From Tubiluchus corallicola (lineage: Eukaryota > Priapulida > Priapulimorpha > Priapulimorphida > Tubiluchidae), in the NCBI GenBank assembly GCA_030141605.1, contig JAQGDQ010000341.1, positions 62,001-126,000 of the forward strand: a DNA stretch of 64,000 bases, in the 5' to 3' direction. Below the pieces are notes generated by a model, which had not been told where the DNA came from, made no database searches, and saw only the letters and a program-made list of their open reading frames with translations. Position 1 is the stretch's first letter, and every line of letters starts with the position of its first letter. A program made the translations under genes and the position numbers. Shown here piece by piece: positions 5,582 to 43,500 of the stretch.

Positions 5582-5870
5582 CTGAAGACGAAGTTGTTCT
5601 CCAGTTTGATCACAAATATCTTGAGTTAACTCATTCGTTTATATTAGTTGATTAAGTAATCAATCAACGTGCTTTTCCAGTATATAGAACACTCCTGTAT
5701 CACAAAAAAGCTTCGCGTTTTTAAGCAAGCTAGCCAGCGCTTTCTTCACAATTAAAATTGCATAAAATGCCATTCGCAATGCGCTACTTGCCCACACAAA
5801 TTTTAACTCACTTCTGATGAATCTGTGAGAGAGTTGACACCTTCGCACGGTTAAGTGTTCCATATGCATT
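5582..5870 (-). other. Candidate non-coding first exon of the PPxY gene
   Basis: On the minus strand, CTTCAG is followed by GTAAGC at 5581-5576, a good splice donor. It could pair with the acceptor near 3678 as the 5' UTR exon of the two-pass PPxY gene. The upstream limit is unknown and the call is by position only. Confidence 0.2.
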
Positions 5871-7390: not shown

Positions 7391-7711
7391 TCAAGTGCAT
7401 GAGTCAACAGTGTCCTCTGATTCAGTTGTATCACATCTGGCTGTCCACACTATTCCTACAAGAGCTAAAGGAAATCCCACTAATATGCACAATCCGGAGG
7501 TGATCGCATACGGCCACAATACATATGACCTCATTCCCAAAGAAATGGGAAGGTTTAGTAGTCCAGCGAACACCAGGAAAGCGCCGGCGATGTACATGCA
7601 GTATCCCGTTTTTGATTTGTTCATTATTCGCTTGTTTTTCTTGATAAGTTCGCAGACCTTCTGACGGTATTTCTGCTTGGTGTTAATGTAGGAATCCAGT
7701 CTTGAAGTCAT
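7391..7711 (-). CDS. Small two-pass membrane protein
   Basis: A 106-residue protein I do not recognise. A basic N-terminal 36 residues (several Lys/Arg, charged helix) is followed by two hydrophobic segments at about 37-57 and 68-90, then a short acidic tail ending SCT. The two segments have glycine-spaced faces, and the second contains GLCILVG, comparable to GLCAMIVG in the PPxY protein 4 kb away. A TAATAACAG acceptor-like sequence lies about 28 bases upstream of the ATG, suggesting a spliced 5' UTR. The arrangement points to a tetraspan-half or scaffold-type membrane protein, but the function is unknown. The overlapping plus-strand frame at 7347-7664 is treated as its shadow. Confidence 0.6.
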   Translation of the reverse strand: MTSRLDSYINTKQKYRQKVCELIKKNKRIMNKSKTGYCMYIAGAFLVFAGLLNLPISLGMRSYVLWPYAITSGLCILVGFPLALVGIVWTARCDTTESEDTVDSCT

Positions 7712-9454
7712 CTGCTGAAGATCGCCTGACGACTGTTATTACAGAACAACATCAAAAATGTTTGAGAGTTATAGTTCTGCAGAACTTTGGAACATGTTCA
7801 TATGTATTGTACTGCTATAATAGCCTCCTGGCAGCCTGTTTTTCAAAGAAGCAAATTTTAGATTCTACCTGGTTAGGCCTACTGGGTGGTTCAGTCGCGT
7901 ATTTTCCATCTACGATTGTTGTAACTAAAGACAAAGTGTTCTCAGGAACAATTGAGCTCTACATCTGCTGATCTTCTAAAACAATAACAATGAATTCGAT
8001 TAATTCTTTTTGGCAGCATTATTTGCGCATTTGAAATCCACAAAGCGTGTTGTATTTAGCAACAAAACATAGAGTCATACATGACACGTTCTAGTCACTC
8101 ATTTTGAAGTTAACTTGCAGAACAACTAGCAGTGTACACTTGTATACTTATAATAAATACTGAAACATTTTTACTAGTTTGCTAATAATATAGTGAAGAA
8201 TGATGTAATGATTCAGCACTCATCTTTCCCTCTATAGTGTTAAGGCCTACACTTGTACATGCGTATAATAATCCGGTAAATTCCAAAAAAGGCAACAGTT
8301 TTGTCAGGGATGTAACATCGATTTCAGATATGGTAGTTTTCAGCACAGTGTATACAAGCTGGTAGCAATTTATGATACAGCAATTTCTACTGCATGCATT
8401 ACACCGGCTTCACTTTACCACTATAACGCGATTGTTTCAAAAATAACCCACACCATCAAATTTCAGTCAGCACGAATCATTTTGAATTATATACATGTTA
8501 ATATTTTACTGTATTCAGACTTCATAAAACATTTATGTTCCAACAGATGTCGGCGAACGAGTTAGTCGTGTATACAATATGTTTCTGTCTGAAACTAAGC
8601 AACCTCACAGCGCTGGATGTACCTGGTGTTCGATGGCTTTTGTAAAAGTAATAAACGCAACGGAAGAAACGAGGCGCTAAGAAAACGTAATTTATAAGTA
8701 AATAGATAAGAAAACAATGGTAATCAATGTAGAAACGGCAAATAACTACTGGCAATAAAGACAATGTAAAGAAGGATAGTGAAAAGGGGCAAAGATAAGA
8801 AAGAAATGGTAAAAAACAATAGTAATCAGACAAAAAATATTAGCCTCAATAAATACCTTAATAATATGGAGATTAAAAAAGGGACGAAACATTTCAGACA
8901 ATTGTCAGATAAGGGATATAGTAGGCCTATTAGTACATATCATACCCTAATTCCAAGGGTAGCCAAAAAAGGAAAAATTCATTTATTACAGAAGTGATGA
9001 TTAACAGTAAAGCCATCGATGGAACTTTAAAAGAATCAGTTTTCAAAACAAAAAATGTCAGTTTTTAGTAAACGGCGAGCGAACATTTGGAAATTAAAAC
9101 ATCGCCATGCCTTCAAATGTGATGAATGCTATTTAGAATGAAAAAAATAGAAAAAAAATTAAGTGTCACATCTTTGTGTTGTTTTGTTTTTGTCTTTTTT
9201 ATCAATACCTTACTTGCCTTTTGATATGTTTTAAAGTTTAATATCAAAACGTTGCACAAGCTTTTCTCTGCATTTTTTTATGTCAATAAAGAATTTATTT
9301 GACGTGAATCCTGTTTAGAACACAGTTTGTTTTATAACTGTTATGCCGTATTAATTTCTATCACACATATGCTGCGAAACGTACACCTGGTGCAAAGGAG
9401 AGAGCCCCAGTCTGGTCCTCCGTTAGTTGAAAACAGATCGAAACGTCCATTCGG
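7712..9454. other. Intergenic, nothing coding recognised
   Basis: AT-rich spacer between two minus-strand genes. Open frames at 8522-8833 (-) and 8779-8997 (+) are low-complexity and match nothing. The sulfotransferase 3' UTR probably occupies the right end. Confidence 0.4.
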
Positions 9455-10438
9455 TTACTCAAACCCAAGTGCAAGTCCTGGCATGTCTTTGATTTTCTCA
9501 CTGTAGATTTTGTCGAACATTTCGCTTTCAGCAACAGTGAAATAGTTTTTCCAGTCACCAATTTTGCCTTTTCTGATGAAGTGCGACACATTCAAATCAA
9601 CTTTAATTTCGTATGGATCTACAGAAGATTTCCCATCAGCTGGTCCAGACCAGTCGTCAACTATTGAGTCTATTTTATTGTCAATGTATTTTCTCATTGC
9701 CTCAAAGCCCGTGGCTTCTGCTACTGTAACTGCTTCCTCGTTGGTTAAATCAACATCCAGGAATTTTGCTATGCGACACACAAACTTCTTTCTGTCCCTC
9801 ACAACATCTTCATATTTGATAAACAGGATATTTTTGTCTTCTCTACGTTTCCACCATTTAGAAAGATGATCAAACCAATTTCCATATCCAACATCATTGC
9901 TTAGAAAGCACGGAAGAAACTGATTAAAGCTCCAGTCTTTCCCAATTTGTCCCATCCATCGCCAAGCACGATGAAAATGGTAATAGGAAACGGCCACGTC
10001 TTTTGGATTCCTCATCACGTAAATTATTTTGCAGTTTTGTTGAAATGCCATTGGTGGTAAATACTGAGGCCAGGCGTGGCTTAAAAATAACCTTCTTTCA
10101 TTCTTTGTTGGAAAGTTGAGTTTCTCGATCTTTTGTTGGGGAGTCAAACCAAGCAGCGTATCAAGAAACTGTGCATCAGCTATGAGCTTGTTGTATTTGA
10201 CATCATCACCATGACTCATAATCCTTCCTACTATATTCATGGTCCATAAAGTTCCTGATTTAGGATACGAACAAACGAACACGTCACTTGGCTGGACCTT
10301 CCACTCCCCTCTTTGCACAGCAGGATACAGCTCATCATAAACACCGATTTCCCTTATGATTCCATCGCCTCCTCTTGTCCACCTGTGTTCCATTGACTGG
10401 TAAAGCTTTGGCAACTCCATTGTCTCATTCACAGACAT
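9455..10438 (-). CDS. Cytosolic sulfotransferase (SULT family)
   Basis: A 327-residue SULT-family enzyme that transfers sulfonate from PAPS to hydroxyl or amine groups of small molecules. The PAPS 5'-phosphosulfate loop YPKSGTLW is at residues 58-65. The catalytic His is in FLSHAWP (His121). The 3'-phosphate site RNPKDVAVSYYHFHR is near 142-156, and the C-terminal RKGKIGDWKNYF closes the PAPS pocket. The dimer motif KxxxTVxxxE is present in KNYFTVAESE. No signal peptide or membrane segment is seen, so the protein is cytosolic. It is some 30 residues longer than typical SULT1 (~295), with the extra length at the N-terminus. All catalytic residues are present and the frame is uninterrupted, whereas vertebrate SULT genes have many exons. 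The substrate cannot be told. The plus-strand frame at 9564-9869 is a shadow. Confidence 0.95.
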   Translation of the reverse strand: MSVNETMELPKLYQSMEHRWTRGGDGIIREIGVYDELYPAVQRGEWKVQPSDVFVCSYPKSGTLWTMNIVGRIMSHGDDVKYNKLIADAQFLDTLLGLTPQQKIEKLNFPTKNERRLFLSHAWPQYLPPMAFQQNCKIIYVMRNPKDVAVSYYHFHRAWRWMGQIGKDWSFNQFLPCFLSNDVGYGNWFDHLSKWWKRREDKNILFIKYEDVVRDRKKFVCRIAKFLDVDLTNEEAVTVAEATGFEAMRKYIDNKIDSIVDDWSGPADGKSSVDPYEIKVDLNVSHFIRKGKIGDWKNYFTVAESEMFDKIYSEKIKDMPGLALGFE

Positions 10439-12640
10439 GGACTGATCTTACTGACAATTCGACTGTATGTAAGTTCGTTTAGTTTCGTGCAGTTGTCCCG
10501 TTATCATTTCTCACTCAGACAATATACTGTTCGCTATCTTGATCACAGCTTGGTAATCAGTAGTCAATTTGACTTCTAGGCTGTATTAGGACAGCTGCAA
10601 TCAATGTTTGTTTGTTTGTTTACCAGGCAAGACAAACAAGGCAAGTTTTTTTGCTCAGAAGTTTGGTCCTCTTCTTCACAAATACATGATCGGGGCCGGA
10701 CTTTGATTTTGTAGGCCCCTGGGATACAGCTACTTTGATACCCCGGCCCCATTGATAATCAGCAAAAGCATGAATGTCGGATTCTTCAAATCAGTTATTC
10801 AACTTTTACAACATGATTCTTACTTCAGCAGAGCGGGCGCATAAGAGAGAGGAACAGAGCTTTTGCAGCTAAAAGCAAATGAAAAAAATGAGGATAAAGA
10901 GAAAATGGGCGAAATTCGTTTATTAAAAACACAGACGTTCTAAAAAAAAAGAGGACAAGCGCGGCGTATTTAACAGACAACATATAATTTTGTATAATAA
11001 TATTCTTTGTTGAGCATCCGTACGTTGTGATACTCACATCACTTAGCTATAGATAAGTAATTTACAAATTGCATTTAAGAATAGCTCATTTGCTTAATTT
11101 CTATAACGGAAGTATTCTTAAATTTAAATTAGGTGTCAAAAACTTTAAAAAGATGAATAAACTTCTGTCTTTGTCACAGTTCCGATTTATTGTTAGTGAT
11201 GATAAAAATGCATTGGCGATTGCTCATTGCCAATAGCAAAACAGTTTCCGGCATTTATATTACAATAAACAACTGCAACAAACCCTATGTAACTAGACTT
11301 ATTTTAATTACAAAAGTTAGTTTATAGACCTTTACGTAGCATTTGAGCTCATCTACCAGAAGTAAGAATAAGACCAGCAAGAGAAGAATTGTTTATAATC
11401 CGAAAAAAAGTTACTGAAAAATTCAGTTGTCTGATCACGGTCACAGATTTTTCATATGCACCATTCTGATGTAGCAAACCAATCTACGTCACTTCAACGT
11501 GGCAGTAATTATAAAATTTAACCACTTCACAATTGTTTCAAGTTATTTCACTGTAAAATTTCTTCAGCACCGATTTCAATTTATGTACCTTTTTCAATTC
11601 AGTAATAAACGCACATTCACTTTATATGATTTGTAATGCACACACTCACACAGCCAGCAACATAAAATATCACCTGTGTTTGAACAGAGCGAAGAAGCCA
11701 AGTGTAAACAATTAGGTCAGGTGTGCAATCATCATACAGGTGCACTAAAGATTACCTGTTCAGCAGTGCCTAACAGAGTGTAAGCATGCGCGTCTGATGC
11801 GCTGCAACTGCTTTTGAGTCTGTAGGTGATGGGAAACTTAATTGTTATAAAAAATTTCATCAAGTTCTCTGAGCTACGTGGGGAAGGCGAATATTGTTAA
11901 TCGTTCTTGGGTGGATTTTGTATTGGAGTTTATAGATCAAACTAAATTCTATTTTATTTTCGCATAAAGTCATGTAAAACATACAAACAAACTATTTACA
12001 CATATATAAACATGGAAAAATAATAAGACTACACTAAAAATTATGGAGATCAAGCCACTGTATGTGATAAGAAGTCAAAGCGCGGTGCAAATGAATTTAA
12101 AGTTTTAAACAATACTGCGCCGCTGTTGCAATAAGAAACAAACAAAAAATGTTTTAGCTAAGATAGCTACGGATGAATGCGAACTAGTGTCTGTTTGATT
12201 CCACGACCGAATGTGAAATTCTATTGTAGTCTTTGGGATAAAAAGTATATATTTGTATTATAGTGTGATGGGCGTTTTTATAATGTAACTTAAAACTCCA
12301 CTTGTCAACAAAAATAGTAACACTATAACTATAACGGCATTATTATTTAACATTATTGTCAAAAATCTATGACAGACGTCATAGGACGCCAGTTTTGCTA
12401 CATTTGTCGTTGAAGAATGGTGACGTTTGTACTTACTTTTGCGCAGAATATTTATATAACAGTGACAATCCTTAAAACTCTATTACAAAATTTAATATTG
12501 TATACCTAATCTCACAATTACATTACATCGTTAATGATTAGTGACAAGCTGTTGCAGCATGTATTTTTGCAAAAGTGATGACTAGTAATAGTGTGATAGC
12601 GACAAAGTTTATTTCTGTATTTTTTTAACAAAAAATCACT
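10439..12640. other. Intergenic, possible transposon scraps near 10690-10760
   Basis: A short (GTTT)n run lies near 10606-10621. At about 10690-10760 sequences such as GGGGCCGG and CCCCGGCCCC occur in inverted arrangement, resembling ends of hAT-like elements, but no target duplication was found. The remainder is AT-rich and unrecognised. Confidence 0.3.
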
Positions 12641-18315: not shown

Positions 18316-21300
18316 CTAGTTATACGTATTTCTGAAAGATAAAAGCACTGTTTGCAGTAAAATGTTAAGGAGTATTAAATTGACACCCCGATATAGCGGA
18401 ATCTTCGAAGAGAGTTGACAGCGATAATGTGTCAAACACTTAATCGTAGAATCTCTCCAGTGGAATTCAATTACCCATTGCATACTGCAGTTACACGCAA
18501 GTCTGGTACCTGAAAAACATTCTGCATAAGTTGGGTTACTATAATGCTTCCACAAATTGTCTTAGAACTGAGTAGTCACTATGCACTTCACTGATTTTAA
18601 TTTTTTTTACAAACAAAATAGAATTTAATTTTTGAAAATCAGCACGGATGAACCACTTTTCAGAATTCGTTTATACGAATCGGTCGAAAATTTGAAACAC
18701 TGAAAATCTGATATATGGTGAAATGTCACGTAGAGGAGTTTATAAGTCGAATTTTACAAGTATTCAAGCAACTTAAAATGATACTTAAGATAATACATTC
18801 GGTACCGTATGATAATCCTTCCAATTTTATCTATCAAACATCAAAAACACTAAAAATAAGAGAACTTCATGACAGTCATTACTTGTTATTTATATATAGA
18901 TTTTATAATGGTTTACTTCCTCCTGCATTTAAATCATATTTCCAACCATTCAGTGAAATTCATAGTTATGCAAACAATAACTACTACATGCCGCCTCATA
19001 GAGCTGATCCATTTAGAAGAACAACACCTTTTAACGCTATAAAGCTGAGAGTAAACTCACAAGTTGTGAACGCCTTACGAGGCTCTGTCGGCAAGTTATT
19101 TCAAACTCTCCGAGAGTTGCTGTGAGCTAGCAGGACCGGAGTCAGAGGACCCGCGCCTCCCATTCCGACTGGGGCACTCAGTTTCATATTCTAGTCAGCC
19201 ACATTTTTAGAGTAGATATCAGAGAGCAGTATGCTTATGTAGTGTTTTAGTAAACAGTGGTCTTAGGTTAAAATGACAAAGTCAGGAGTAAGTAGTTTGA
19301 TGAGCTTATTATCTTAAAGCACAAGAAACCCTCCACTTACATAAAACTTGAAAAATTCGTCTAGAAATTTACCATTTACATACTTTTTTCCTGCATACAG
19401 GACTTGCGTCAGCAGCAGTATATAGCATGTGAATTTAAATTCCCGGGATGGCCGTGAGACGCAGCCATTTTGACGATAAGTCATTTGAAACAAGTTTAGA
19501 TAACATTGTGTTAAGTTTGAAAAAATAATCACTGCAGACGTAAATAAATAAGTAAATAAATAAATAAAATAACTAAATAAGTAAAATTTTAAATTATCGT
19601 ATATCGTCAATAAGATTAAAAATATGTTTTTGCTTATTGAGTGGTGCATCCTGGAGGTGAGTCAGCGACATTTTACCAATTGAAAGGATTTTAAATAATT
19701 AACAATTTTCTTTTCTAGTTACGTAAGTCTCTCAAGCAGGTAAACGAAATGCTAAGTAATATAACTTTGCATGGAAAGTTTTTGGGACGTAGTTTAACAT
19801 TCCTTTTTCTTTCCCTGATTTACGTTGCTCGTATATTACGCCATGTAATGGCGCGGTCGGAACAGTATGACGAAAATTTAAAAGGAAAACGAACAAAAAT
19901 CTTTTCAACCCGACTACAATATACGCATAAAATTGGCATAAAGTAATATAAATTTTTAAGCGACTTTTCTGAAACCAACTTCGGGTACCCCTTTTCTTGT
20001 CCTTTAATCCTTTAAATGAACCTAGCCTTATATACAGTTTCCTAGTTGTGTTATAATTAGAGCAATTTATTATAGCGAACCAAGAGAAAAAAACAACAAT
20101 TCAACAACAAAACAACAAAAATATTTCTCCTTATTTGTAACAATCTACTTTACAAAATTAACTTAAATGAGGCCCGATTCATTTTCTATATTGTTTAAAT
20201 TTATGATTCATAGATAATTCTTTAGTAGTAGTACTAGTAGAGCTTCTCGGTCTAAATACAAAGTTACAACTACGATTTAATATTAAGTATAGCAAAACAC
20301 TAGTTTATATTCAGTCTTTAAAAAAAGCACAAATCACTTAACGTGTTTTCGTTTTGTTTTACTGTTATCGCTTAAACTTAGAAAAGTATAACCAAGAAAT
20401 TTGCAAAAACTTTCTGTAAAGCATAAATTTAAAATGTACTACCTCTCAACAGAAATTTTTAAGTGAGGTGGTTGCCGTCAGTTGTCTGAAAATTATGACG
20501 TAACTGGGGTACTTCGTGACTTTTCTTAAAGTTCAGAATAAAGACTGCTCCAAAATATTGAAAACTACAATAGCTTTTTTTTAAATTTTTTAAATCAAAG
20601 CTTAGATTAAATAAGAATTACCTCGGATACTCAAATTTCGTTAAACTTTCAATGGTACGCGCGGCTCAGTGAATCTACTAAGATTGGCAACGGCGCCTTT
20701 TTGTCACATTCGCGTGGCCGACGAATAGAAGGCGGTACCATGATAAACATGATCACGAACTGCGGTGTTAGTTTTTGACGTCATATGATGTTGAGCCCAC
20801 TTTTCGTTACAACATGCGTTTACACAGTATTGTAACACTTATGCAAATATGCTTGATGCGCAAGGGAAGACGCCTGCCATTGCGCAAACTGTGGTTAGTT
20901 TCTGAAGTAAGCAATAGCTGTTTTCGGTTGATGTTAATTAACTTTCAAAGCTAATTATTGAAATATAAGGAACAATTGCTAACTTTTATAGGCAAGAATA
21001 TATATGCATATTTTGGACATTAGATTAAAATGTGATTGAGTCTAAACAATCGTTCGGTCTTTCTTTTAACTGCATCGTAGCTTTCGGTGAGTGCGCGCTG
21101 CTTAAACTAATTCAAACTTCTGCAGCTTACCCTAATATTCACCCAGAAATGTTACAGCGTCAGCTAGCTAATGTTTTTGTAAAAAAAATTAATTTTTAGA
21201 AAGTAGGAGGAGTGTTGATTCGGTGGGTGTTGATGTACACTGCAAATTACTTGATTTTATTAATTTTGCAGCTGTAGAGTCCGAAGAAGATTTTAAGTTA

Positions 21301-22013
21301 TATCACCACTTAATACATCGGTGAGTTCTCATTATTTGGTATTTTTCTATCTGTATTTCTGATTCTATACCTGTGATATTAAGAAGATCTGGTACGTGAG
21401 GCATGTTGACTATTGGCTCGTCCATCAACTCTAAGCCAGCGTTCTTAATGACGATTTTGTTCAGTTTTTTGCTGTTGGAAAAATCCAGTGCACCAAGTGT
21501 TATCAGTTTTGGAGTATTTTCAATTACGATTTCCAACAACTCCGGTAACTCAGAAAACGCTTTATCTGCGATGGAAGCCAAATAATAATTTTCCTTTAGC
21601 CACAAGAGCCTCATGTTTGGAAGGCCAATGAAGGTCTCATTTGTTATATTCGTAATATTTGATTGATGTAGGCGAAACGAAAAGAGAAATTGTCCTCCAT
21701 TGATGAAACCTCTCTGTGGTAATGAACTGTCGGAAAAATAAAATATGTGCAAGTGGTACCATGTGCCTAGGAACTCAGACAGGCTGCCTATGATGTCTTT
21801 AAATTCACGATTATCAATATGGTTATTTCCACGAAGTCCGCAAGTTATGAAACAAAGGCTTGTGTTCAGTGATGTGACAGGCTGTTTACTGTAAGCGCAA
21901 TCTATTATAGGCCTGGTAAATTCACACGATTCGTCTTCGTTTGCGTTGGCATACAAGAGGAACTTGACAAAAATCATCAGACAAGCATGTAGCCAGGTAC
22001 TGCATCTGTTCAT
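18316..22013 (-). CDS. LRR surface/secreted protein A (two exons)
   Basis: I join exon 1 (22013-21371) to exon 2 (18509-18316). The donor is ACAG|GTATAG, the acceptor is TTTTTCAG|GTACC, and the intron is phase 1, giving 278 residues. Exon 1 encodes a signal peptide from MNRCSTW, a Cys-rich N-cap (CEFTRPIIDC...CFITCGLRG), and about five irregular leucine-rich repeats with many N-glycosylation sites (for example NITNITNET). Exon 2 encodes an LRR C-cap (CNCSMQW with two later Cys) and a hydrophobic tail (NLILLNILLQTVLL), suggesting a GPI signal or membrane anchor. Gene B has the same plan and splice phase. I do not recognise the family outside this window. An earlier in-frame Met at 22073 exists, but the signal peptide fits the Met at 22013. 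The 2.9-kb intron holds a LINE fragment and one interspersed repeat. Confidence 0.7.
18715..19135 (+). mobile_element. LINE fragment (CR1/L2-like, post-RT region)
   Basis: A 136-codon frame contains LQVFKQLKMILKIIHS, FIYRFYNGLLPPAF and SEIHSYANNNYY. This order of motifs lies between the reverse-transcriptase core and the C-terminus of many CR1/L2-like LINEs. It is truncated on both sides and ends in degenerate sequence. It lies antisense inside the intron of LRR gene A. Confidence 0.65.
19314..19835 (+). repeat. Unnamed interspersed repeat, copy 1
   Basis: About 520 bases resembling 36957-37438 and 41995-42510 along their whole length. Shared landmarks include CACAAGAAA...CCACTTACAT at the left, AATAAGATTAAAAATA in the middle, GTGAGTCAGCGACATTTTAC, and TTTAACATT...TTTTC near the right end. 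No open frame is conserved among copies, so it is non-autonomous. A run of AAATAAATAA lies inside this copy. Confidence 0.75.
19836..21302. other. Intron of LRR gene A, unrecognised
   Basis: AT-rich DNA between the repeat and exon 1. A CpG-bearing stretch near 20650-20780 stands out. No coding similarity is seen. Confidence 0.35.
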
Positions 22014-22073
22014 TGTTGGTCGCTTACTTAAATAGCACTTATGTATTATTGCACAACATTGCAATGTTAACAA

Positions 22074-24310
22074 TAGTAGGAGACTACTGTAACTGGTGTT
22101 GTAGCTGCTAAGCAGCTAAAACACTGTTAGCTAAAATAGATGATAAGATCATCATCTAAGTTAACTGGGTCTCCTGTCTATGCCCAGAAAACAAATGTGA
22201 ATGATATGACGACAAAGCAAATCACTAAGATACCAGTTACTAAGCAACTTTAGGTTATGCAACTCCGTGGTTGTATCTTTCATCATGCGGCTGGAAATCT
22301 ATTGTACAATCATTATCAAATCATTCATAGGAAATATCAGTCGACTATCAGTTATTAGTCATCAGTTTTTCAGTTTTATAGTAGATGCTTCATATCGATA
22401 TTTGGATTCAGTTATTTTTCTTACCGTTTTGTCTTTATTCTTCAGCCTTGGGCTTGAAACAACTTGCATTGTCTCTGTGTCAGCAACATTACAACTCTAA
22501 TTACTAAACTTTCAATTAAATCTGTTTGACTGATTAAGCACCAACAATAACTCGTGGTTTTCTAGACACTTTTTGCACCACAGAAAAAACGTTCAAGTAC
22601 TTCCTTGCCTTGTTTTGGAATTGTTTGCCTTTGCACTTATACACGACTCATTTCCTTGTACTACTACGCCATTCGCAACGTTATGTAGCAATCAAAAGAA
22701 CCATGATTGTTCGGTCTCTCGGAGCTAAGCACTGGTTTGTTTCTCGATTCGAGGTATCAGAGAGGAACGTGGACGATAAACCTTCAAAAATCAACATTTT
22801 ACGCCCGTGTTTTGCAAAATTTAGCTGGATATGATAGGTGTAATTAGATTTCGCCCGAGTTTCCACTGGGTCCTGGTACAGTTTTGACAGCACGGCATGA
22901 GCTTGATATTAATCCTTGCAAAGCTTCACAAGCCTGTTGTTGATGTTGTTGTTATTGTTATTGATGTTGTTGTTGTTGCTGTTGTTGTCATTGTTGTTAT
23001 TATTGGTGATGTGGTGTGGTGTGGTAAGAAAAGTGTGGACAATGGCCAGGCACGACGCCTTGATGCAGGCTAGTCTGAATTATGTTTACGTTGCACGTTG
23101 CGTTGTGGGATGTAATAAGCTCACTTGAGCTTTAAATTCTCAATTGGCACTGTAATTGACAGCTGTTTCTAGAGATAATATAAATTCATTTCTCAAGAGA
23201 TGACGCCATTCCGTTTAACGTAAACCTAAACATGATTAAAAAGCCAAAAAAGCCAATAATGTCGCTACGCTACAAGTGAGATATTTTCAATAGCGTCTGC
23301 CACATCCAAGTGTAAGGTACCACCGTAAAACCAACGTCTAATTTTTTCAAATAAGTTTAATTATTTCTCTTTTCATCAATCTATTATTTATTACTCACCG
23401 TAGTTTTTGAAGTGAACTGGGCACTTTTAGTTTTTCTTCTTACAGCTAAGAAAAGGGGAAGGTACGTATGCAGACACATCATCAAAGCTACTTAATATTT
23501 GTTGCATAATCATGCTGCCTTGCTTATTCATTGATTTTTCTTCGTATTTGTTTTTTTGGCTACACATTTTCAAGCCATATTGTTCTTCTTTATTTTAATT
23601 ATTTTCATTATTTACTTATATTCATGTTTTCCTGTTGTCTCATAGTCGAATTATTCAGTTTCAATTTTTTTTAACTTTATTGGTTTATATTCGTATTATC
23701 TTTTGGTTGTTGTTGTGATTCGGAAAATTAACATAGTTTTCATTGAAACGTTTTATGTTCTCTTATCTTCTTTTTTGAATTATTACTTACTTGTTATGCT
23801 TTTAATTTTGTCTTTTGATTTTGTTATGCCTATAAATTTTCATTAATCTCATCTGAGAATGGCAGTTGACTTGTTGACCAGTCTTTCGCAACCCTTTCTT
23901 TTACACTCCCTGTGACATTTTCTAATATCTTCATCCTTACACGGCTTCTGAATTGTTTTATAAGTACTTTTTGTTCTTAACTGTAAATTGTGCATTTCAG
24001 GAGATAAATAAATATTGTCTATTTCCACGCCTCTTGTTTTATAGTCTCCCGGTTTTTTTAATTTTTTTTTGGTCACAGCTTTGCATATCTTTTTTATTCT
24101 TTACCTTTTCGTGAAGTGTACTAATATTTTAGGGCCTGCTTACCCTTTGCCAGAATAGGTTTATCAATATCTGCATACCGCCGGCCATGTTCTGGTTTGT
24201 TCAAGCTAAAAGACTACACACATGGCTCACTTTTCAGGGCAAGCCTATATATGAGTTAGACTCAAAACGTCAAAACTGCTTGTTTGGCTTACATCAAGCA
24301 CATCACTGCA
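22074..24310. other. Spacer between LRR genes A and B
   Basis: A (TTG)n-type microsatellite lies near 22930-23015. A stretch near 22735-22760 (TCTCGGAGCTAAGCA) faintly recalls a 5S rRNA internal promoter. The remainder is AT-rich, and open frames on both strands look like chance. Confidence 0.35.
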
Positions 24311-24313
24311 TTA

Positions 24314-24478
24314 TGGCACGTTCAGACGTAGAGACTTGTCTCTCTTAGAGAAGTTGCCAAGCCGTTCACACGCAACTTGTTGCGCAACTTCTCTATCAGA
24401 GTTGCCAAGCCGTTCACAAGTTGCACCTTTACACTCAGAGAGAAGCTGCGAGAGAAGTCTTTACGTTAAAACGCGCCA
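24314..24478. mobile_element. 165-bp MITE, Harbinger-type target site
   Basis: The ends are inverted and similar: TGGCACGTTCAGACGTAGAG at the left and TGGCGCGTTTTAACGTAAAG at the right, read inward. Both are followed by GAC(T)T-rich and TCTC-rich sequence. The element is flanked by TTA on each side (24311-24313 and 24479-24481), the 3-bp TWA duplication typical of PIF/Harbinger. Inside, AGAAGTTGCCAAGCCGTTCA-type sequence occurs as a near-direct repeat. It has no coding capacity. Confidence 0.7.
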
Positions 24479-25215
24479 TTAAGCACTGGGAGGATGACAG
24501 CGAGTTGTGACTAAACTTACAGTATCACATGCAGCCCTTTTGTAAACTCAAGTAAGTAATAGGTTATTTTGTGAATTAACAATTTCACAAATATAGGTAA
24601 GCAGTCAATAATTAGTGGTTATCTACGACATAGGACAAAGTTCCTACTACATATAAGGTTCTACAGCCTTTCAATTTTAGATTTCTTTTGTATGATCTCA
24701 TATGTATAATTATGGGCTTTATGTTACTTGATGCGGAGTCTGTGAGTGTAGGTAAACTATACTATACTCATGTTTGATCTTAAATGTTACTGAAATAAAA
24801 GTAAACAATCACATTGTTTATCAATTGTCAATTACTTTTGTTCATTTACTGTAAAGCTTATTTTCTATCATCTTTCAGTTTATTATCTCTATCTGCATTT
24901 ATAAAACCTATTTGTCATTTTTTAGTTTTTTTGTTTTATAAGATTAGTATGTGCGTTGTGAACTCTTAACTGTGGTTTCATATTTGTACAAAAACATTGT
25001 TTTAGGGCAAGTAGTCGCTGGATAACGTGCATATATTTTTTACTTCCGTCTTTCTGCTGCATAAAGTAGGCATTTACGTTTTTAACTCATGATTAAACTT
25101 GAATGCTGGTATAAAATCTTTATGGTTAAAAAAAGTCTATTGAAAACCGAAGTTATTTTGGTGAACACTGTTACTCGTAGTGTCTTGTTAGTTGAAGAAC
25201 AAAAATGAGTGTTGT

Positions 25216-27753
25216 TTAAGAATCGTTAACAACTGCAATTCCTACTGATATGAATATAGTTTGCAGCACTAAAGCCTCGTTCTGGTGCAATAATGTCCCG
25301 GAATTTACCGAACAATCCTCAAATCCATCTTCTGTCACAGAACAACCAATATCGCTCAGTTTCCAGGGATGGGCCTTTGCCCAGAGCATGCTGCAATTAC
25401 AGTATATAAGATTTCCTGAAAAGCAAGAAATATCTCTGTTAATCTTTGCGGTCACGCAAATTATGAGCGACAGAGTCCAGCAATAGAGAGACAAAAGAGT
25501 GAGTGAGAGTGATGGGGTGAGTGAATAAATGGGTGTGTGTGTGAAATAATAAGCCTTTTCCTTTATTAATAAGGTTTTCCTTTTATTAATAAGGGTTTCC
25601 TTTTAAGCCACCGTGAACATTATGGAGTGATAGGATAAAAAATCTTCCGTTTATAGCTGTAGGCCTATATGTGTGTAGTTGTTATAACTGCAAATTGCAA
25701 AGATCTGTTAAATGTTCATGAAAAAATCTAACAATTTAGAATTTCCGCCATCCTAAATAGATTTTAACAATTTTCTATGAAACTTGTTCATTAGTTTACT
25801 TTTACTACTTTGGGTTTTCTGGTATGGAAGCTAGCACTGGATAACGACTAAAGGTTTTTCATTGATACGTCACAATAAAACTTTATATTATAGTTTTTGT
25901 GTGGCGTTGATGTTTCCTTTAATCAATTCAAAATTGCTGAAGTTTTTTCTGTCATGCATACCGAAAAATTAGTCAGCTTTGGTTTTTTGGAAAAAATTCT
26001 TTTAAAAACAGCTTTTACTTAACTTACTTTTGAATATTTAAAATATTTGAATAATTGTGAACTCACAAGCAATTTCTGGTAGCGCTCGCCTATCTGAACT
26101 CTTATTGTTATGTTCAAACTTCGACGTCCTTTGTAATGTCAAGTCTTACATTAGTGGATCTCCAGTCTTATAAAGTCTGTGAATACTTAAATGTTATTTT
26201 GATTTCAAATAAAATCGCTTTGCATGGAGATAATTCTTAACAACAAAATGTATGTAATTAATAAAAAATCCTTTTTCTTCTTATTGAAATTATGTGACTA
26301 TTTAATTGGTCATTGTCCAGTTTTATAAATAGGGTTATTTAGTTATAGAATTCCTAATATTGCTTCTAAAAGTTTCCAAAAGCTGCTTGTCGAAATTCCA
26401 ATTGAAAATGTTAAGTCATAGTCATTAAGATTTTTCTCAGGAATGCAGCCAAGTTAATGTCTTTGTCCGCGCCAAGGGGGGGTGGGGGTGGGCATACTCA
26501 TTGTCAATTATATTGAATCTCGTGAGATTATATAGTTTTCAGAGAAAGCTACACAGTGAAGAAGTCCGGGAAAAACACGATTTATAACGTACTGTTTTAC
26601 ATCTTGGGATACCTAGCTAAGGTAAAACAGTAGCAGTCGTTAGTTGATACAAAAAAGACTTATTATTAGAGTTTTTATTTTTCTTATGTAGTTATTATGA
26701 CAGGTGAACTGATTATAACTTGTTCACTTGGATGTCTACTATATTAGTAAGTAGGATAGACGATTACCAGCCGAAATTTGAAATTGCCTGAACCGATTTC
26801 TTTCTAAGGAGTCCGTCGGTTTTTGTTCTTTACTGTTGCTATTGTTTCATGTTTAGTTGTGTAATTATTTGCACATAAAGATTGCATGTAAACTGCAGAT
26901 ATCTGCCTGCAGGTTGGTTTATTTAATAATATTTGAAAGTTAATGTCCAACAATGAATTTATAATTACTATGAAAGAAAGATAAACGTGTACTGTAATTT
27001 GCTGGATTAAAATTTGCAAGACAAATGTTTTGCTTAATTAGACAAATTAGTCTTCAATAAAATCAGTTAACAAACCAAGTATTTAAATTCTGTGTTAATT
27101 GGAAGTAATTCTGATTTCTTTATACCTTTTAGTTGGAGAGAAACTGATTCGTAGGGCACGGATAACAATGGTTCGGCCATATAATGCAACGATGTACTTC
27201 GAATCTCAATACCTGTCAGATTTCTGCTTTGTCTAAGGTCTAACGTGCCAATAATTCTCAAACTCCAAGCGCCTATTATGGTAATGTTCACCAAATTCGG
27301 TAGTTTTGAAAATGCTTCATTTGCAATAGAATACAACTCGTGGTTGTCTATTAGCGAGATGCCCTGTACGTTTGAAAGCCCAGTTAATGCGCTTCCGTTG
27401 ATACGCGTCAAACTTGAATTCCGTAAGAATAGAGAAAAGATCATACGTCCATTCTCAATAAAACCATTTGCGGGTAGTGTTTGGAATGTCAAATGAAATA
27501 GTTGTAATACGTATCCGGTTTCTGCATAAGACAAGGAATGTAGAATGTCCTTGAATGTGCGGCGATCAACGAAACCTGTTCCCTGAAGTCCGCAAGTTAT
27601 GAAACAATGATCTTTCCCATCTACAACTTCTGTGCCATAATTGCAGTCTATTATTTTTCTAGTATATTCACACGTAATGTTCTCTTCCTTTCCTTTCGTT
27701 CCAAAAGGTAAAGCTAATAGAAAAATTAGCTGCCAGGTGCTAGTTTTGTCCAT
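25216..27753 (-). CDS. LRR surface/secreted protein B (two exons)
   Basis: Exon 1 (27753-27126) joins exon 2 (25415-25216). The donor is AAAG|GTATAA, the acceptor is CTTTTCAG|GAAAT, and the intron is phase 1, identical in position and phase to gene A. The product has 275 residues: signal peptide (TWQLIFLLALPFGTKG), N-cap with CEYTRKIIDC and CFITCGLQG, about five irregular LRRs, LRR C-cap (CNCSMLW plus two Cys) and a C-terminal hydrophobic stretch (ALVLQTIFISVGIAVV) that could direct GPI anchoring. It is clearly homologous to gene A over its length, with many substitutions in the repeats. The inferred role is extracellular binding or recognition. The overall plan (LRR ectodomain, Cys caps, short anchored tail) resembles that of vertebrate surface LRR receptors, but direct orthology is not shown. 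Confidence 0.72.
25550..25610. repeat. Short 20-bp tandem repeat
   Basis: About three copies of a unit like TTCCTTTTATTAATAAGG in the intron of LRR gene B, next to its second exon. Confidence 0.6.
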
Positions 27754-27754
27754 G

Positions 27755-27985
27755 CCTAGTCTTACTGGTAAATTTAGAAAATGATTGAATAAATGAAAGA
27801 AATAGTTTTAGTGCTGCAGCAGCAAAACAGACACCACACTATTACCTCATGGCGATGGTTTTGTAGCTCTTGAAAAACAAATCTGAATAATATAGTGACC
27901 ACATAACTTAGTTACAGTTACCATGGAGCATTGGAGCTCTGGCCTTATCCACTAACCATTGTTAAACCACATCCATAAAAAAGGC
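27755..27985. promoter_or_regulatory. Presumed promoter region of LRR gene B
   Basis: This is the sequence immediately upstream of the gene B start codon on the minus strand. No TATA box or known site is assigned; the call rests on position only. Confidence 0.25.
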
Positions 27986-27988
27986 AGA

Positions 27989-28811
27989 TCAGACAAGTTC
28001 GCGACTGCTTGCAGTTTTGTTAGGCAACAAGCTTAAGTATGTATTACAAGTGCTTTTATAATAACAATAATAATAACAATAACAAAAATATATAATGATG
28101 ATGTTGATGACGACGATGATGGTGATAAAAAATAATAATAATGTAATGATAATAAAATGGTACTTGTCATGTCCTCCATTCTGTATGAAAGGTCTTTGTT
28201 TAAACGAATGATGCTTTTCGTGTCTTCTATTCAGTATGAAGGGTCCTTGTCGAAACTGTTTCAAAACAAAAGGTGTTGCTGTCAATGCCTTCAGTGAATG
28301 AGTAGATTGCATATAACTACACACAACGTTGTCATCCCTAATTTCGGGGACCTCCAATCCTGTGTAACAGAGTGATGAGGCCTTCTTACTGATGAGGTCC
28401 AAAGCTTCCGTCAGATCAATGAAGCCCAAGAATAGCTGACTTTGCTCATTGTTGTACTTGTTTGCAGCTAACGAAATGAAAACACCACATCAATTGTTGA
28501 CCATACTTTCTAAATCCACATTGTGCTTTCACACGTACTCGCTCAGCTTGTTCTCGAGATTAGGTGAGCAAAGGCTTTTCTAAGGATAGCGAGTAAGGGC
28601 ATTTCACTTTGTCCCGACTATTATTACAATCCCTGTGGGGCCCCTTGTTTTTATAGAATATGAAAATGTTTACATTTCTCATGCCTGACGGACCATCCCT
28701 TTCTCCCATCATTGCTGTAGGAGCTCGTGCAACTATTTCAGTGTCGTTGCTAAGATAAACAGCAATAATGGCAGCAAATTTATATGACAAACAATTCACG
28801 TTATTAGCCAT
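27989..28811 (-). mobile_element. Decayed LINE reverse-transcriptase fragment
   Basis: Pieces of a LINE RT appear in shifted frames. Near 28690-28600 is IFYKNKGPHRDCNNSRDK, comparable to the family's IYKNKGDR.DCNNYRG. Then comes a CGFRK element, and at 28429 FIDLTEALDLISKK, matching the conserved FIDLTKAFD region of RT. Frameshifts and stops separate the pieces. An (AAT)n-rich tract follows at about 28055-28155. The element lies between LRR gene B and the broken third copy. Confidence 0.6.
28055..28155. repeat. Trinucleotide-rich tract (AAT/GAT)
   Basis: An irregular run of AATAAT, GATGAT and related triplets beside the LINE fragment. Confidence 0.8.
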
Positions 28812-29804
28812 ATATGGCAGTCTATGCTAGATCGCATTAGATATTTATAAAGAGACCTGCAATGATATAGCTAACTTGTACGGCACGGTTATACTTAAGC
28901 CAAAATACGTTCGCCATTTCCACATGGACAGATTTCTCAGATTTTGATCTCAGGCAAAGATAATGATGATCATTCATTGCATAAAATGAAACGATTTCAG
29001 CTGGTAAGCCAAAATACTTGTGAATATTTTTAGAAAGAATCTGTTTTACAAAGATGGTAATTTGTAAATGATTCTGAGTAGAGGAGGATTCGAGTTTTAA
29101 TTGTATATTAAATTGCACTCGAAGTTGTTTGAGTTCTGATGTACGGCTTTTCCTTCAAAGATAAAAAGGGACAAAAAAAACGAGGGGCTACGTGTGCGAA
29201 GGAATATTAATGGCATACTAAGTGGCTATATGTGCGAAAGGACACGACACACAGTTTTTCTTTAGTTAGCTGCATATTGTCATTATTACAGTAATTCAAT
29301 GTGAGCACATCGAGGCGTTATACACGGTGCATACAAGTTTTATTGTTGAAAATTTTCAAGAACACTGGAATAAATCCACTTTCCCGGGAACCTTACTTTT
29401 CTTTTAATATTCACCGCAAGCGACGAACCAGTTAGGGGGCTCCATTGTTGTTTGCTCAATTGTTTATTAATTGCTATCACGACTTATGTGCTGACCCTGT
29501 GTGATGACCAAGTGAATTGAATACACACATCACCTGCACGACAAGGTGGTGAAATAAACCATAAATCAGATTTTCAAAAATGCGTTTCAGTTGGCGTAAC
29601 TTAACTACACGTGCAAACTTATATCTGTGTTTCTGGCACTACGAACTTTCAACTTTTTCCTAATATTGGACAGTATTTTTATTATATATTTACCAAACAT
29701 AAGGCCTATCTCAAATGGCAATGAAAAATTGCTAGCTGTTGTCATTAGTGTGGCACCTGTTTACTCACACAGTATAAAGATATTTCTTGAGCCATTTCAC
29801 TAAT

Positions 29805-30054
29805 TCAATAATTAAATAACTTTAAATTAGTTGTAGATTCCTTTATGATTAAAAGAGAAAGAGGTTTATAATCCATTGTCAAGTTTGGCTCTTCCGTCGT
29901 TCGCAGCCCCGTCTCTAGGACAGAAATGTGTCCCATCGTATTTTCTGAGAGGTTAAGATCACAAATCATTGTTAGTTTTGGATAACCCAGTATGAACAAC
30001 GCCTGTAGGTTTGGCAGTCCGGAAAATTCGAACAAGCCATCATTGTCTCGGAGC
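29805..30054 (-). pseudogene. Truncated third LRR gene copy (C)
   Basis: About 80 codons correspond to the second half of exon 1 of genes A and B: LRDNDGLFEFSGLPNL aligns with KENYYLASIADKAFSELPEL, with a small deletion, then PKLTMICDLNLSENTMG and a last LRR. An in-frame TAG lies just before the similarity begins, and unrelated, probably transposon-derived, DNA starts near 30060. The expected donor (AAAG|GTATA in A and B) reads AAAG|GAATC, so the splice site is lost. No signal peptide, N-cap or C-cap exon is found. Confidence 0.6.
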
Positions 30055-32610: not shown

Positions 32611-33224
32611 TTATTTTCTGGTGATTAAGTATTCAAGACATCGAAAACTATTATACGTGGATAAGAAGTCACCAGTATATAATTGTAATAATAATTTATT
32701 GCATGATTTTCCTAAACCTTGCACAGGTATGAAATTGTGATTATAACTGAACAAAGTGGGCCATTTCACTATGTCTTGTGACATCTGATTACAGTGAATC
32801 AAAATGCAAAGTAGATTTAATTATTATAATAGCCATTTTCTGTACAAAAATATTACCTGTCCAATCCAATGACTAGTCTTTCCTTAATGGAAGTAACACG
32901 ATGGAAACTCGGTCGATTTATTTTCTGGTGATTAAGTATTCAAGACATCGAAAACTATTATACGTGGATAAGAAGTCACCAGTATATAATTGTAATAATA
33001 ATTTATTGCATGATTTTCCTAAACCTTGCACAGGTATGAAATTGTGATTATAACTGAACAAAGTGGGCCATTTCACTATGTCTTGTGACATCTGATTACA
33101 GTGAATCAAAATGCAAAGTAGATTTAATTATTATAATAGCCATTTTCTGTACAAAAATATTACCTGTCCTATCCAATGACTAGTCTTTCCTTAATGGAAG
33201 TAACACGATGGAAACTCGGTCGAT
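32611..33224. repeat. 307-bp tandem duplication, two copies
   Basis: Bases 32611-32917 and 32918-33224 are the same sequence. By eye I find one difference (GTCCAATCC versus GTCCTATCC). The join is direct with no spacer. The 63-codon minus-strand frame present in both copies is a consequence, not evidence of a gene. Confidence 0.95.
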
Positions 33225-35109: not shown

Positions 35110-38100
35110 ATGAGATTTAACGAGGAATGTTCCGGTAGACCGTGGTGCGTGGTCAGATACGCATACGCTTTCAGACGGTTTCTGTTGCCGTCAGTTCATG
35201 CAGCCGAGCCAAATGCAGAAGTCGACTCTGTGACCCTGGCGGCAGCTAGCACGGAAGGTGATATTTTGGTCTACAATGCTATATGTTAATGAACTCTTTA
35301 TTCTTACCTGGTAGTCACTATTTTAATCTGTAGCTTGCTTTGACTTTTGGTCATTTATGATGCAGATTAGTAATAATAAAAGCGTATTGATTTTTTTTTT
35401 GTAACTTTACTGTCAATCTGTGTTTTTTATAGTCATTCATTGGAGTTCATTACATTTGGAATTTATATAAAATGAATAGTAAAGCAGCTGCATTTTGAAA
35501 ACTGGTTTAGTTATTTTTGATCGTCCCATTGCCAGGCTTTCATGTGCTATAAGATAAAACGGAGATAAATTAAATTTTTCGTATTTCATTAGCACCGACT
35601 ACTAAACAATTTTCATTTGATTAGCAATAAGCAATTAACATTTTTTTGATTAACTATTACTCGGTAAATATTGAGAATACGTGAGGCCTCGCACACAAAT
35701 ATGTGGTTCAGTTACAAGTAAAATTAATGACAAATGGCAGTGATTCTGTTTTCTTTGCTTTAGACTCTTCAAAGTTTTTCACCTATTTCCACCTTGCACA
35801 CTGCTTTACCATATTTGGATGTACTTATAAATTTCAAAAATGCTGGCTGGCTTCTCTGCGGTTGTACAGCATATAGCTACATGCTAGTCATTATGAAATG
35901 AAGAGTGAAAGAGTGAAAAGGCTTCTGGCCATATAAGCGTGTTTTTTGTCACATTATTACATTTGAAAGCCCACTTTTTATATATACCCACTATAAATGG
36001 CTTGGTATTTTGTACCTCGTACGTTATTCTTGCCCATTCATGGAAAAGACGCGAAACATGGTGATCTTTACGGCAATGCACGCGTTCGAAATTCGTTACT
36101 TAATTTATAAGTTTCTTTTTGTGAAAATAATTGTGAATTTTTTGTGTCATCATAATAGTGCATTAAAAAAACTCCAGTGTCTGTTGAGGTTATATAGGCC
36201 TTTAAATGGTGTAGGTAGATTACCTAATCTTTCTGAAATTAATACTGAGTATAATCTCTTTTTATTACAGTCTACATTCTCCTTAATGTGTTTTTTGAGG
36301 CCTAAGGAAATTGCTATCAGGTACAAGAAATAAGCTTGCATATGATAGTTACATGATTGTATGTAAGACTGTTAGTACATTGGAGTTCTTCAGGTTGTAA
36401 TATCTGACTTGAATTCACTGGAAATCTGAATTGAGGAGATTCGACTTTGATCATGTCTAAAGTCGTTGAATATCAAGTAATTGAATAGGTTATCCTCTTT
36501 TTTCGCAAACATACTTCATTATCAGTGTAATTATATTTTCAGAGCCGGATGCTGTTGAACCATCGTCGACATCAGCGTCTCTTTCTTCGATGGCCAAGTC
36601 TGCGTTGCAGATTGTCTCTACAAGATTCATCCCAGAAAAAAAGTTTTATGACTTACCAACCGAGGAAACCGGTTTTGATCGGATTAAAAACATATTTATA
36701 AATGAGTAAGTGTCTGATGTGTGAATCTACCTTCAATGTGACTTTACTTTCAATGTGTGAATTTATGATTCGTGGAGGAAACTTACAAGTTTGATTGCAC
36801 GAATGTTTTGATTGTCGATTAATAAAGTATTATTCATTAATAAAGTATTATTCATTTAGGTAATTTGAAGAGAGATGTAGATTTTCCTAACCTCATGATT
36901 GTGAATATGAGGAAATTTAGGAGAACTGTGTATTTGCAGCAATTATTAGTTACTTTAAATCACAAGAAAATCCTTTACTTACATAAATCTAAAAAAAGCC
37001 GTTTGAAGTTTTATACCACTTGCATGTTGTCTTATTGTATACAGAGCTTGCTTTAGTAGTAATGCTGCGTAAAACTTGTAAACTTAAACTCCAATACTGA
37101 CCGTTAGGTGCAGCAATTTTGATGGTAAGTTGTTTGATACAAGTTTAGATAAGGTTGCGTAAAGTTTGAAAAAATAATCAGAGATCAGCGGCGCCCATTT
37201 TTCTAACTAAGCAAAATTTTAAGTTAGTGTATCTTGTCAATAAGATTAAAAATAGGTTTTTTTGGTACACTAATACTGCGCACTGAGAACGTGAGTCAGC
37301 GATATCTTACCAATTGGCGCGGACATTTTAAATTCTCAAAAATTTTCTTTTCTAGTTGCACGAGCCTTTTAAGCAGGTAGCGCAATGCTAAATAATGTTA
37401 AGTAATGTAACTTTGTATGCAAATTTTTTTGAGATATACAGGGTGTCTATAAAGTCTCTCTACAATTTAAAAATTTATTACAAAGGCAGTTGACAAGATT
37501 CGATAACTAGATTTGTTCTAATGTAATCAGTGGTTGTCAAAGTTTTTTTAACTCATTTAATACACCTCTATATGGGCACCATTACTTGCACGAAGCACAT
37601 CAAGACGGTACTTGATTTCTTGCCATGTTTGCTGTAGCATAGCCTCATCAATGGTGGCAATGGCATCAGAAATCCGCCCTTTGCTTCAAGTCAGTAATGT
37701 CTCGTATCTTTGTTCGATACATGATGTCTTTCACATAGCCCCATGGATTTCTTCCGTACTTAGTTCTGTAGTTTCGCTCTGTCTGCACATACAATTTTAT
37801 TTCAATAAACCATGATACACACTGTGCCTTCTCTTGAGGGGTACCCATTTTGAGGCTTCAGTTAACAATACCCTTCTACCATCAGGAGACCTACATAAAA
37901 TGCAAAATTTCAATGTGATCTCAAACTTAAATAAACACTGAATAAAACAAAACAGATATGTTAAGATATCTTGTCAACTGCCGTGTAATAAATTTTTAAA
38001 ATTGTAAAGGACTTGATAGACTTTATAGTTTAACATTGCCCTTTCTTCCCCTATAACCTATAATAATTAGGGAAACCAAGTAATAATAATCATGTCCAGA

Positions 38101-40503: not shown

Positions 40504-43500
40504 CTACTACTACTACTACTATTATTATTATTATTATTATTATTACTATTATTATAGTTTGAAATCTGAAAAATGCAAATTGTGTTTGAAATAATGTGTG
40601 ACACAGGAAAATCGCATATGTAAACACTAAGCACTGTCGAACAGTAAGCTCGCATAGCTCCACCTTCAGTGTCTTCAGTTAAGCTTTAGCATGCATGTAA
40701 GCGACCCGGCCACAACGCGTAAAATTGTTTTCTTTATTTTCAGAAACGACTTCAGGATAATCTTACATTTAGTATATTGAGAAAGGGCTGGAGTTCCGGT
40801 TGGAGGTTGGGTGCTTTTACAGGGCTTTTCATGTAAGTTTTGCATTATCTTTCACACTCTGAAAGTGTATAAACATGTTAAGGACGGGGGAGGGGGCGTT
40901 CACATGGATGTGCGCAAAGAATAGGGCATTTCAGACAGATCTAATGTTATATGTGTAACTTGGCTTTCAGATGAATTAATTTACAGGACGTAACATGTAG
41001 TCACTGTGTCTTACTCAATATTTGCTGGGACGAATAGCCAAATGATGATGCATGTGTGCTTTATGACCAAAGTTAAGCAGTACTGTGACTGGCCAGCAAA
41101 TGGATCTGCTGGTGTTTTCATTTGTCATATTAAACGCTTTTAAGAAATTTTTATAGCTCTCTGGAAACACCAGAGAAGTTGGGATACAAGTCACTAACTA
41201 TTTTTAAAAGAACACCTTCAGAATGAGAATGGTTTAGTATCTGTTACCAATTTGGGGGCTTTTTCACTACTGGAATTATAACATTTATATGATTGTGATC
41301 AACAAGGAATTTGATTCTGAGCTGACTCACTACATTAAATGATGGACCTGTGAGCTTGTATACAAGCCGTGTAAGCTTCATTATGCGGGTAAATAAGACA
41401 GTATTATACTATTCGTGCGTTGCTAATCATGATGGTTTCAATTTAATTCTGAAGTTGTGCCTTCAAATGAAGACTAAGCTTTAAAAGTCATTGTGCGTTA
41501 ATGTTGCTGTTTTTGTGGTCATTCTTGTTGACTTTGACAAAAACTTGAATATGCTGATAGTGACGATGATGGCAGCGGTAATCATGATGTGTGATATGAT
41601 GCTGAGCGGTAGAACATATTATGTCAGTTTTTCTGTGGAAAAATAAACCCAAGTTGGATTTATTTATGTTTATTTTCAGCTTAACTAGTAGTATGTGTTC
41701 TGTGTATCGAAATAAATCTAGCGTTACGGACTTCATTTTTGGAGGAATTGTTACTGGCGCTCTCTATAAGACAAATTTTGGACTTCGCGGAATGTTTGCC
41801 GGCGGTCTTTTGGGTGGAACTTTGGGGTATGTTGTGCTTTCTCAGCTTTTTAAAAATGATGTCTAGTTAATTGTTTAATCAGTAAATAAGTTCATAAAAG
41901 ATTTTAAATGAATGTCCGTCTTCGAGTACTACACTATTGGAAAAACAAGTACAGCTTAGCTGCTAAACCAGTGATAATTGAGAGCTGTAGCTTTATTAAA
42001 GCACAAGAAAACCCTCCACTTACATTAAGCTTAAAAAATTGTCTCGAAATTTTATACCACTTACATACTACCTTTTCGTATACATGAGTTGCATTGGCCA
42101 TAACGCTGTATAAAACGTGTAAATTTAAACTCCCGCGATGACCGTTAGGCGCTGCCATTTTAATCGTAGATCGTTTGAAACAAGTTTTGATAACATTGAG
42201 TAAAGTTTGAAAAAATTATCAGAGCATTCATAGCATACATGTTGCTAATTAAGTAAAACATTAAATTACTGTATCTTGTCAATAAGATTAAAAATACCTT
42301 TTTGGCTAGTGAGTGGCGCATCCTGGAGGATGAGTCAGTGACATTTTACCAATTGGCACGAACATTTTAAATCATTAGTCTAGTTACACAAGTCTTTCCA
42401 GCAGGTAAATGAAATGCTAAGTAATATAGATTTGCACAGTAAGTTTTTTGGGTCATAATTTAACATTGCTTTTTCTTCCCCTGATATACGTGTTTTAGTG
42501 ATGTCATTTTAAATTTTCATTTTATTTCTTAGGCTTGTAGGCGGATCTGTGATATACAGTATGTTGTGGCTGTCTGGTACCCGATTTGAAGAGTTGAAGT
42601 TCTGGCAGAGGAAAGTGTTGATGCAGAAACATGCGTATGTATTCGTAGCTAAAAATATGAAACAATGAAGCATCATTATGAGACTATGAAAAGTGCTGTG
42701 CTTTTACTCCGTGTTTGGATTTAAAAGTGAACTTTTGCTATGTAATTGCTGTGGATTTATGGCACCAAGATTTGGGAAATTGCTTTACCGGTGAAAAATA
42801 ATGAGAGAACAAAAATGGCTTTTTATTTTATTTTTTATGGTATATAAATCCGTCACACTGACCTAAGACCTCACTATCTTAGAAATAGGCCACATTGCTC
42901 ACAGCATTACATCTTGGTTTAAACATAATTTATTGAAGATGTAGCATATGCTAGGTTTGAAACAGACAGTATATTAGTTGTGTTCTGTCCTGGTGGGAGT
43001 GAATGCTAGACAGTTGTAGAACAATGGTGACCACACACAATGTACAAAAAATGTTGCAATAAATATGAACATTACTATGTAACAAGAGTAAACAAAGTTA
43101 ATATCATTTAAAGCCTTAAGTGTTTGAAATAAAAGACTGCACTAAAACAAAAATTTGAGTGTTCACAGAATTATCTAGGGTATGGTTCCCATGCAGGAAC
43201 AAACGTACAAGTTCATTTGTTGCAAGACTGTAAACATTGATGTTAAAAGCTGACGAAAGAGTGCAGAGATTTGTAAATGAGTCATGTTTGGCCTGATGGT
43301 AAAGGGGGCAGCTAATTAAGTAATGACCGACTGTTTTATAAGTAGAACCACATTGACAATTAGGTGATACTAACGATCCATTGTAATTTTTACATTTTCT
43401 GAAGTATAAATCATAATTAAGTTGGCAAAAACCAACTCTCATTCTGGTATCGTGTACAGATAAATTTCGAATACCACTTGAAAAGTAAGTAGGCCACTTA

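Follow-up and report, generated by a model that had tools for sequence, protein, structure and literature searches.

The question raised by a 64,000-nucleotide (nt) stretch of the Tubiluchus corallicola genome (contig JAQGDQ010000341.1, positions 62,001 to 126,000; hereafter the window) is what kind of protein is encoded by two leucine-rich repeat (LRR) genes, A and B, and whether these genes, with a fragment designated C, form an array of their own. Related modules with the same exon boundaries were found throughout the genome, and A and B are best explained as single-module members of a large secreted or glycosylphosphatidylinositol (GPI)-anchored family serving germline-encoded surface recognition, with immune use the most likely, a reading given about even confidence.

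Gene A, gene B and relic C

The two intact two-exon genes and one broken copy on the same strand that had been predicted were recovered, all on the minus strand (Table 1). The joins proposed, 21371|18509 in gene A and 27126|25415 in gene B, are GT..AG at exactly those bases, and the shared intron position and phase that had been claimed were borne out, both introns being in phase 1. Exon 1 of A and B is 38.5% identical over 218 columns (E about 3e-42) and the C-cap exons are 33% identical (E 4e-6), while 209 aligned codons of exon 1 differ 99, 75 and 116 times at codon positions 1, 2 and 3, respectively.

Cysteines occur at residues 4, 11, 30, 39, 54, 58, 220, 222, 239 and 245 of the A product and at 28, 37, 50, 54, 215, 217, 234 and 244 of the B product; after the presumed signal peptide the two are alike in having four N-cap and four C-cap cysteines. 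The predicted plan of an N-cap, about five LRRs and a C-cap exon stood. The signal peptides of that plan were called from hydropathy and position only (best 10-residue mean hydropathy of the hydrophobic start 2.62 in A and 2.51 in B), and its hydrophobic tails, weighed below, proved modest when compared with shuffled sequences.

Fragment C is a relic. Its alignment with B includes gaps of 5 and 2 residues and covers only the C-terminal LRR part, GA stands at the site of the donor GT of B, and the N-terminal part was looked for upstream and not found. The intron of gene A also contains a repeat (window 19314-19825) with copies at 36955-37429 (68%) and 41996-42491 (76% identical).

Table 1 Features of genes A and B and relic C, in window coordinates
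Feature	Position	Strand	Description
Gene A, whole	22013-18316	minus	spliced product of 278 amino acids
Gene A exon 1	21371..22013	minus	signal-peptide-like start, N-cap, about five LRRs; ends in phase 1
Gene A N-cap	21840..21926	minus	cysteines 30, 39, 54, 58
Gene A intron	18510..21370	minus	2861 nt, GT..AG, phase 1
Gene A exon 2	18316..18509	minus	C-cap CxC-x16-C-x5-C, hydrophobic tail, stop
Gene B, whole	27753-25216	minus	spliced product of 275 amino acids
Gene B exon 1	27126..27753	minus	signal-peptide-like start, N-cap, five LRR strands; ends in phase 1
Gene B N-cap	27592..27672	minus	cysteines 28, 37, 50, 54; beta-hairpin in predicted model
Gene B intron	25416..27125	minus	1710 nt, GT..AG, phase 1
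Gene B exon 2	25216..25415	minus	C-cap CxC-x16-C-x9-C, hydrophobic GPI-like tail, stop
Relic C	29805..30053	minus	last part of LRR domain; donor lost

A modular family and its splice rule

The genome (343.5 Mb in 2344 contigs, given here as C-numbers) was searched with four queries, the best 150 candidates being scored each time. The B domain gave 58 matches at E <=1e-3 (best 150 of 176 candidates). With a module from C786 as the query all 150 scored places matched at E 3.3e-13 or better (best 150 of 426), and 147 of these were without an inner stop; a C920 module matched 121 of the 150 (best of 308), and gene A gave 15 matches at E 1e-8 (best 150 of 285). Among the matches listed, the union of the B, C786 and C920 searches comprises 209 places on 73 contigs, a figure that counts places with the queries included, in which a broken module may count twice, that omits the A search and another 12 stretches (some of them partial) detected by profile in the fetched loci, and that is not a census. 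Another place lies within 10 kb in 163 of the 209 cases. What had been taken for a local array of three is instead a small clade of this large modular family, and ordinary orthology to a single-copy gene, which the original prediction had set against it, does not fit because about 200 related places occur in the genome. The weaker matches among them may represent other LRR genes.

Every one of the 38 stretches fetched around matches (20 + 10 + 8, hand-chosen rather than random) held at least one module, in several architectures. A, B, two genes on C2047 and one on C2087 have a single module. At C794, C1724, C42 and C786 order and strand indicate several modules on separate exons followed by a terminal C-cap exon, whereas two to four modules share an open frame at C1652, C786, C2336, C2217, C2087, C1511 and C272, and C628 has two open frames of six modules each; some of the multi-module frames are truncated where the fetched sequence stops. 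Two adjacent frames of C2227 each contain some 600 residues or more of Thr/Ser-rich linker, and shorter linkers occur at C810, C2217 and C1511. At locus L017 two adjoining family frames (3439-6924 and 6932-9991) carry long Thr/Ser-rich, mucin-like repeats.

Contig C786 (L021, 81 kb) is a near-perfect palindrome, probably of assembly origin, with 13 mirror pairs, and the union without the mirror half comes to 196; paired match coordinates sum to 81349-81407, for a length of 81352. The gene at L021 1293-2927 looks broken or mis-assembled because its two family modules are each divided over two reading frames. A C1724 module at L022 2145-2800, spread over two overlapping frames, is likewise a broken copy.

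The exon boundaries follow a common rule. A phase-1 GT donor was found within a 24-nt span near the module end, mostly at the same place, in 61 of the 63 single-module open reading frames (ORFs) with a complete module end, a set that takes in A, B, C and near-identical copies; the two ORFs without it are the frameshifted C1724 module and relic C. All 26 module exons that start with a C-cap have an AG exactly 14 nt before CxC (L024_7794, for which the last three AGs only were listed, is counted as conforming). Their lengths are divisible by three in 26 of 26 cases because of the two phase rules, and this is not separate evidence. Genes A and B obey the rule on both sides: their LRR portion finishes with a donor in phase 1, and the AG of exon 2 stands 14 nt before CxC. 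Because this joint is repeated across the genome, the two gene models are probably right. The terminal exons of the two C2047 genes and of C2087 have their acceptor 26 nt before CxC, not 14.

A tree of 71 modules was built; L004 was left out of it and of the counts because it repeats L011. A and B were sisters (support 0.845), joined by the two C2047 modules and that of C2087 in a clade with support 0.934, which sits within a group of mostly first-exon modules (0.797). Judged by this placement, A and B are therefore an old pair, about 40% identical and without closer copies, and the window contains a side branch. The tandem duplication and divergence in the repeats that had been proposed are supported; the family grows through duplication, in tandem, of entire genes and of modules.

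Elsewhere in the window, a TatD-type DNase (699-1634) and a sulfotransferase (9458-10447) are each nearly whole in one open frame, and a possible membrane protein at 2866-3732 matches TMEM171 below the cut-off. A 307-bp unit at 32611-33224 is present in two tandem copies with 99% matches, and further tandem repeats lie at 62055-62351 (22-bp) and 59657-59959 (62-bp). In the genome, partial copies of 18S/5.8S ribosomal RNA (rRNA) were seen on C1972 and C2110; L029 and L030 hold partial rRNA copies with 18S pieces, L029 also 5.8S, and in L030 a spacer-like repeat comes after the rRNA pieces in many copies. No match to a COX1 pattern was seen, and a search for the arthropod cuticle family PF00379 yielded no candidates, although its controls yielded none either.

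Caps, predicted fold and variability

A protein search placed the Pfam domain LRR_8 just over its cut-off of 27 bits in A and B (27.2 and 30.8), with LRR_5 below cut-off; 29 of 38 family members matched LRR_8 at E 0.1. No Pfam cap model matched A or B at E 10 within the HMMER filters, LRRNT matched none of the 38 family members at E 0.1, and LRRCT was not detected at E 1 in the six-module frame of L012. Cap cysteine patterns are present in the family with a spacing that differs from the Pfam LRRNT and LRRCT caps, and the N-cap, suspected from the outset to lie outside the named families, is named by no Pfam model. Among the 88 modules that include an N end, 59 show the N-cap motif CxxxCG and 29 have an altered cap, which in several cases contains two cysteines. 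The Pfam scan of A and B disclosed no TIR domain, nor was any signalling domain found when six family proteins (A, B and single frames of L012, L018, L014 and L017, three of the six being single exons) were compared with Pfam.

Structure prediction was run on the B domain, and the C-cap fold falls outside the modelled part. The model, with a predicted local distance difference test score (pLDDT) of 93, describes a predicted capped LRR solenoid in which a beta-hairpin and a helix precede five LRR strands. From the strand positions in the model and the modules keeping two cysteines, we infer that the N-cap disulfides would pair 1-3/2-4. The nearest structures ('pdb_via' search) were the Nogo receptor, LGR4, LRRTM2 and variable lymphocyte receptors (VLRs), all tied. 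Across the family, variability was 3.19 bits at concave positions, 2.30 at others and 1.56 in the core.

Possible functions and known systems

At the level of sequence, the favoured explanation draws on the architecture, the intron rule, the family size and the tandem growth. In such a protein a putative signal peptide would direct the chain into the secretory route, the disulfide-linked beta-hairpin would close the N end, and the CxC...C...C motif would cap the C end of the short five-strand LRR solenoid. A ligand might be bound at the variable concave face, and the hydrophobic C-terminal tail would be swapped for a GPI anchor or, in some members, would itself keep the protein in the membrane. 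GPI-anchored proteins have an attachment site, a spacer and a hydrophobic run at the terminus. Growth is by tandem copies, often with one phase-1 exon made up of C-cap, linker, N-cap and LRR set. The likely ligands would be microbes or foreign cells, recognised at the body or cell surface; such a role is plausible because the family is very large within one genome, and, by analogy, proteins of this type that occur in big tandem families frequently serve in recognition. Binding to bacteria has been reported for an amphioxus protein with the same plan (PMC4731796).

Several observations weigh against this explanation. The weakest point of the gene description is the modest tails: an equally hydrophobic stretch arose in 9.5% (A) and 12.5% (B) of shuffles of the last 45 residues, and although 15 of 18 C-cap end frames have a near-end 12-residue stretch of mean hydropathy at least 1.5, only three, at two places (L004 and L011 being one), exceed 99% of shuffles, those of A and B not among them. 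The count of places includes some that mirror or nearly duplicate others. Neural, matrix or hormone receptors make up most of the structures nearest to the model. Variability of the concave face is usual in LRR proteins whatever their function, and recent change was only weakly commoner there (88/475 vs 285/1870, or 18.5% vs 15.2%, in 19 independent recent pairs; p 0.09), with the core not spared and no more conserved than the rest (61/380, 16.1%). Among 48 listed recent pairs, which overlap and so are non-independent and some of which are possibly alleles, 38 of the 46 finite pairwise selection ratios were below 0.45, pointing mostly to purifying selection; three lay between 0.5 and 0.8 and five, all from C628 or C920, were at least 0.9. 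Binding proteins under constraint would account for these data no less well than an arms race.

That mostly purifying selection, together with the kind of many of the best structural matches, is what would be expected of adhesion or wiring proteins, the class of NgR, LRRTM and Slitrk, in which a capped LRR protein at the surface of one cell binds a partner on another. We regard this as fairly unlikely, since module number is very uneven among the copies and this one family has about 200 places here, against a mammalian total, all classes together, of more than 135 extracellular LRR genes (PMC2235866). The near-neutral ratios in C628 and C920 copies, along with the large tandem family and its variable faces, would suit self/non-self, gamete or colony recognition proteins diversifying within the species, a proposal somewhat less probable again in view of the conservation of most recent copies. 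The Thr/Ser-rich linkers, long at C2227 and shorter at C810, C2217 and C1511, suggest a structural role in mucus, cuticle or extracellular matrix, with LRR modules as glue, but A and B have no such linker and this role seems improbable. It is very improbable that alternative splicing or recombination mixes the approximately 200 modules, many of which sit on interchangeable exons in phase 1 at both ends (26 of 26 tested), into numerous anchored ectodomains, giving a combinatorial LRR recognition system independent of VLRs with A and B as its minimal one-module form. Least probable are decaying, functionless copies, as relic C, the one split module at C1724 and the two at C786 might suggest: 147 of the 150 scored places (of 426 candidates) have no inner stop, the junctions are shared across the family, and the ratios are mostly below 1.

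Germline surface recognition remains the preferred explanation. A family built from one repeated capped LRR module, often with anchor-like tails, would amount to a large germline repertoire of binding proteins, and the exon rule would make its full annotation and a test of module shuffling straightforward given RNA data. No description of the family was recognised in the literature, weak evidence of novelty as subscription papers fell mostly outside the search.

Among known systems, VLRs combine a capped LRR ectodomain with a C-terminal anchor; caps and LRRs are present in A and B, whose putative anchor is judged by tail composition. The VLR germline gene is incomplete and is completed from flanking LRR cassettes, whereas A and B read as complete germline two-exon genes with the intron inside the coding part; no trace of somatic assembly was seen, although no search aimed at it was made. 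The N-cap cysteines of the VLR-like amphioxus protein Bf66946 are at 21, 25, 27 and 39, compared with C-x8-C-x12-C-x3-C in gene B, and the C-cap is shorter in A and B (CxC-x16-C) than in VLRs and Bf66946 (CxC-x22-C). The Nogo receptor (RTN4R) has more repeats than A and B, has standard caps and belongs to a small family. Toll and TLR proteins have a transmembrane helix followed by TIR, whereas in A and B 33 and 31 residues, respectively, follow the last C-cap cysteine. Slit and LRRC17, which are secreted, few per genome and with standard caps, resemble the multi-module members in having separately capped LRR domains in series, while A and B have one module. In PMC2235866, LRRC17 is given as LRRNT-4LRR-LRRCT-LRRNT-3LRR-LRRCT. 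Invertebrate LRR-only recognition proteins, compared by description only, likewise have an LRR ectodomain with no signalling part and are reported to be expanded in some lineages. With extracellular LRR proteins in general, A and B share tandem LxxLxLxxN repeats forming a solenoid, as indicated by LRR_8 and the model. Neither the LRR fold nor the one-module plan is new, and it is the cap spacing and the module copy number that appear distinctive.
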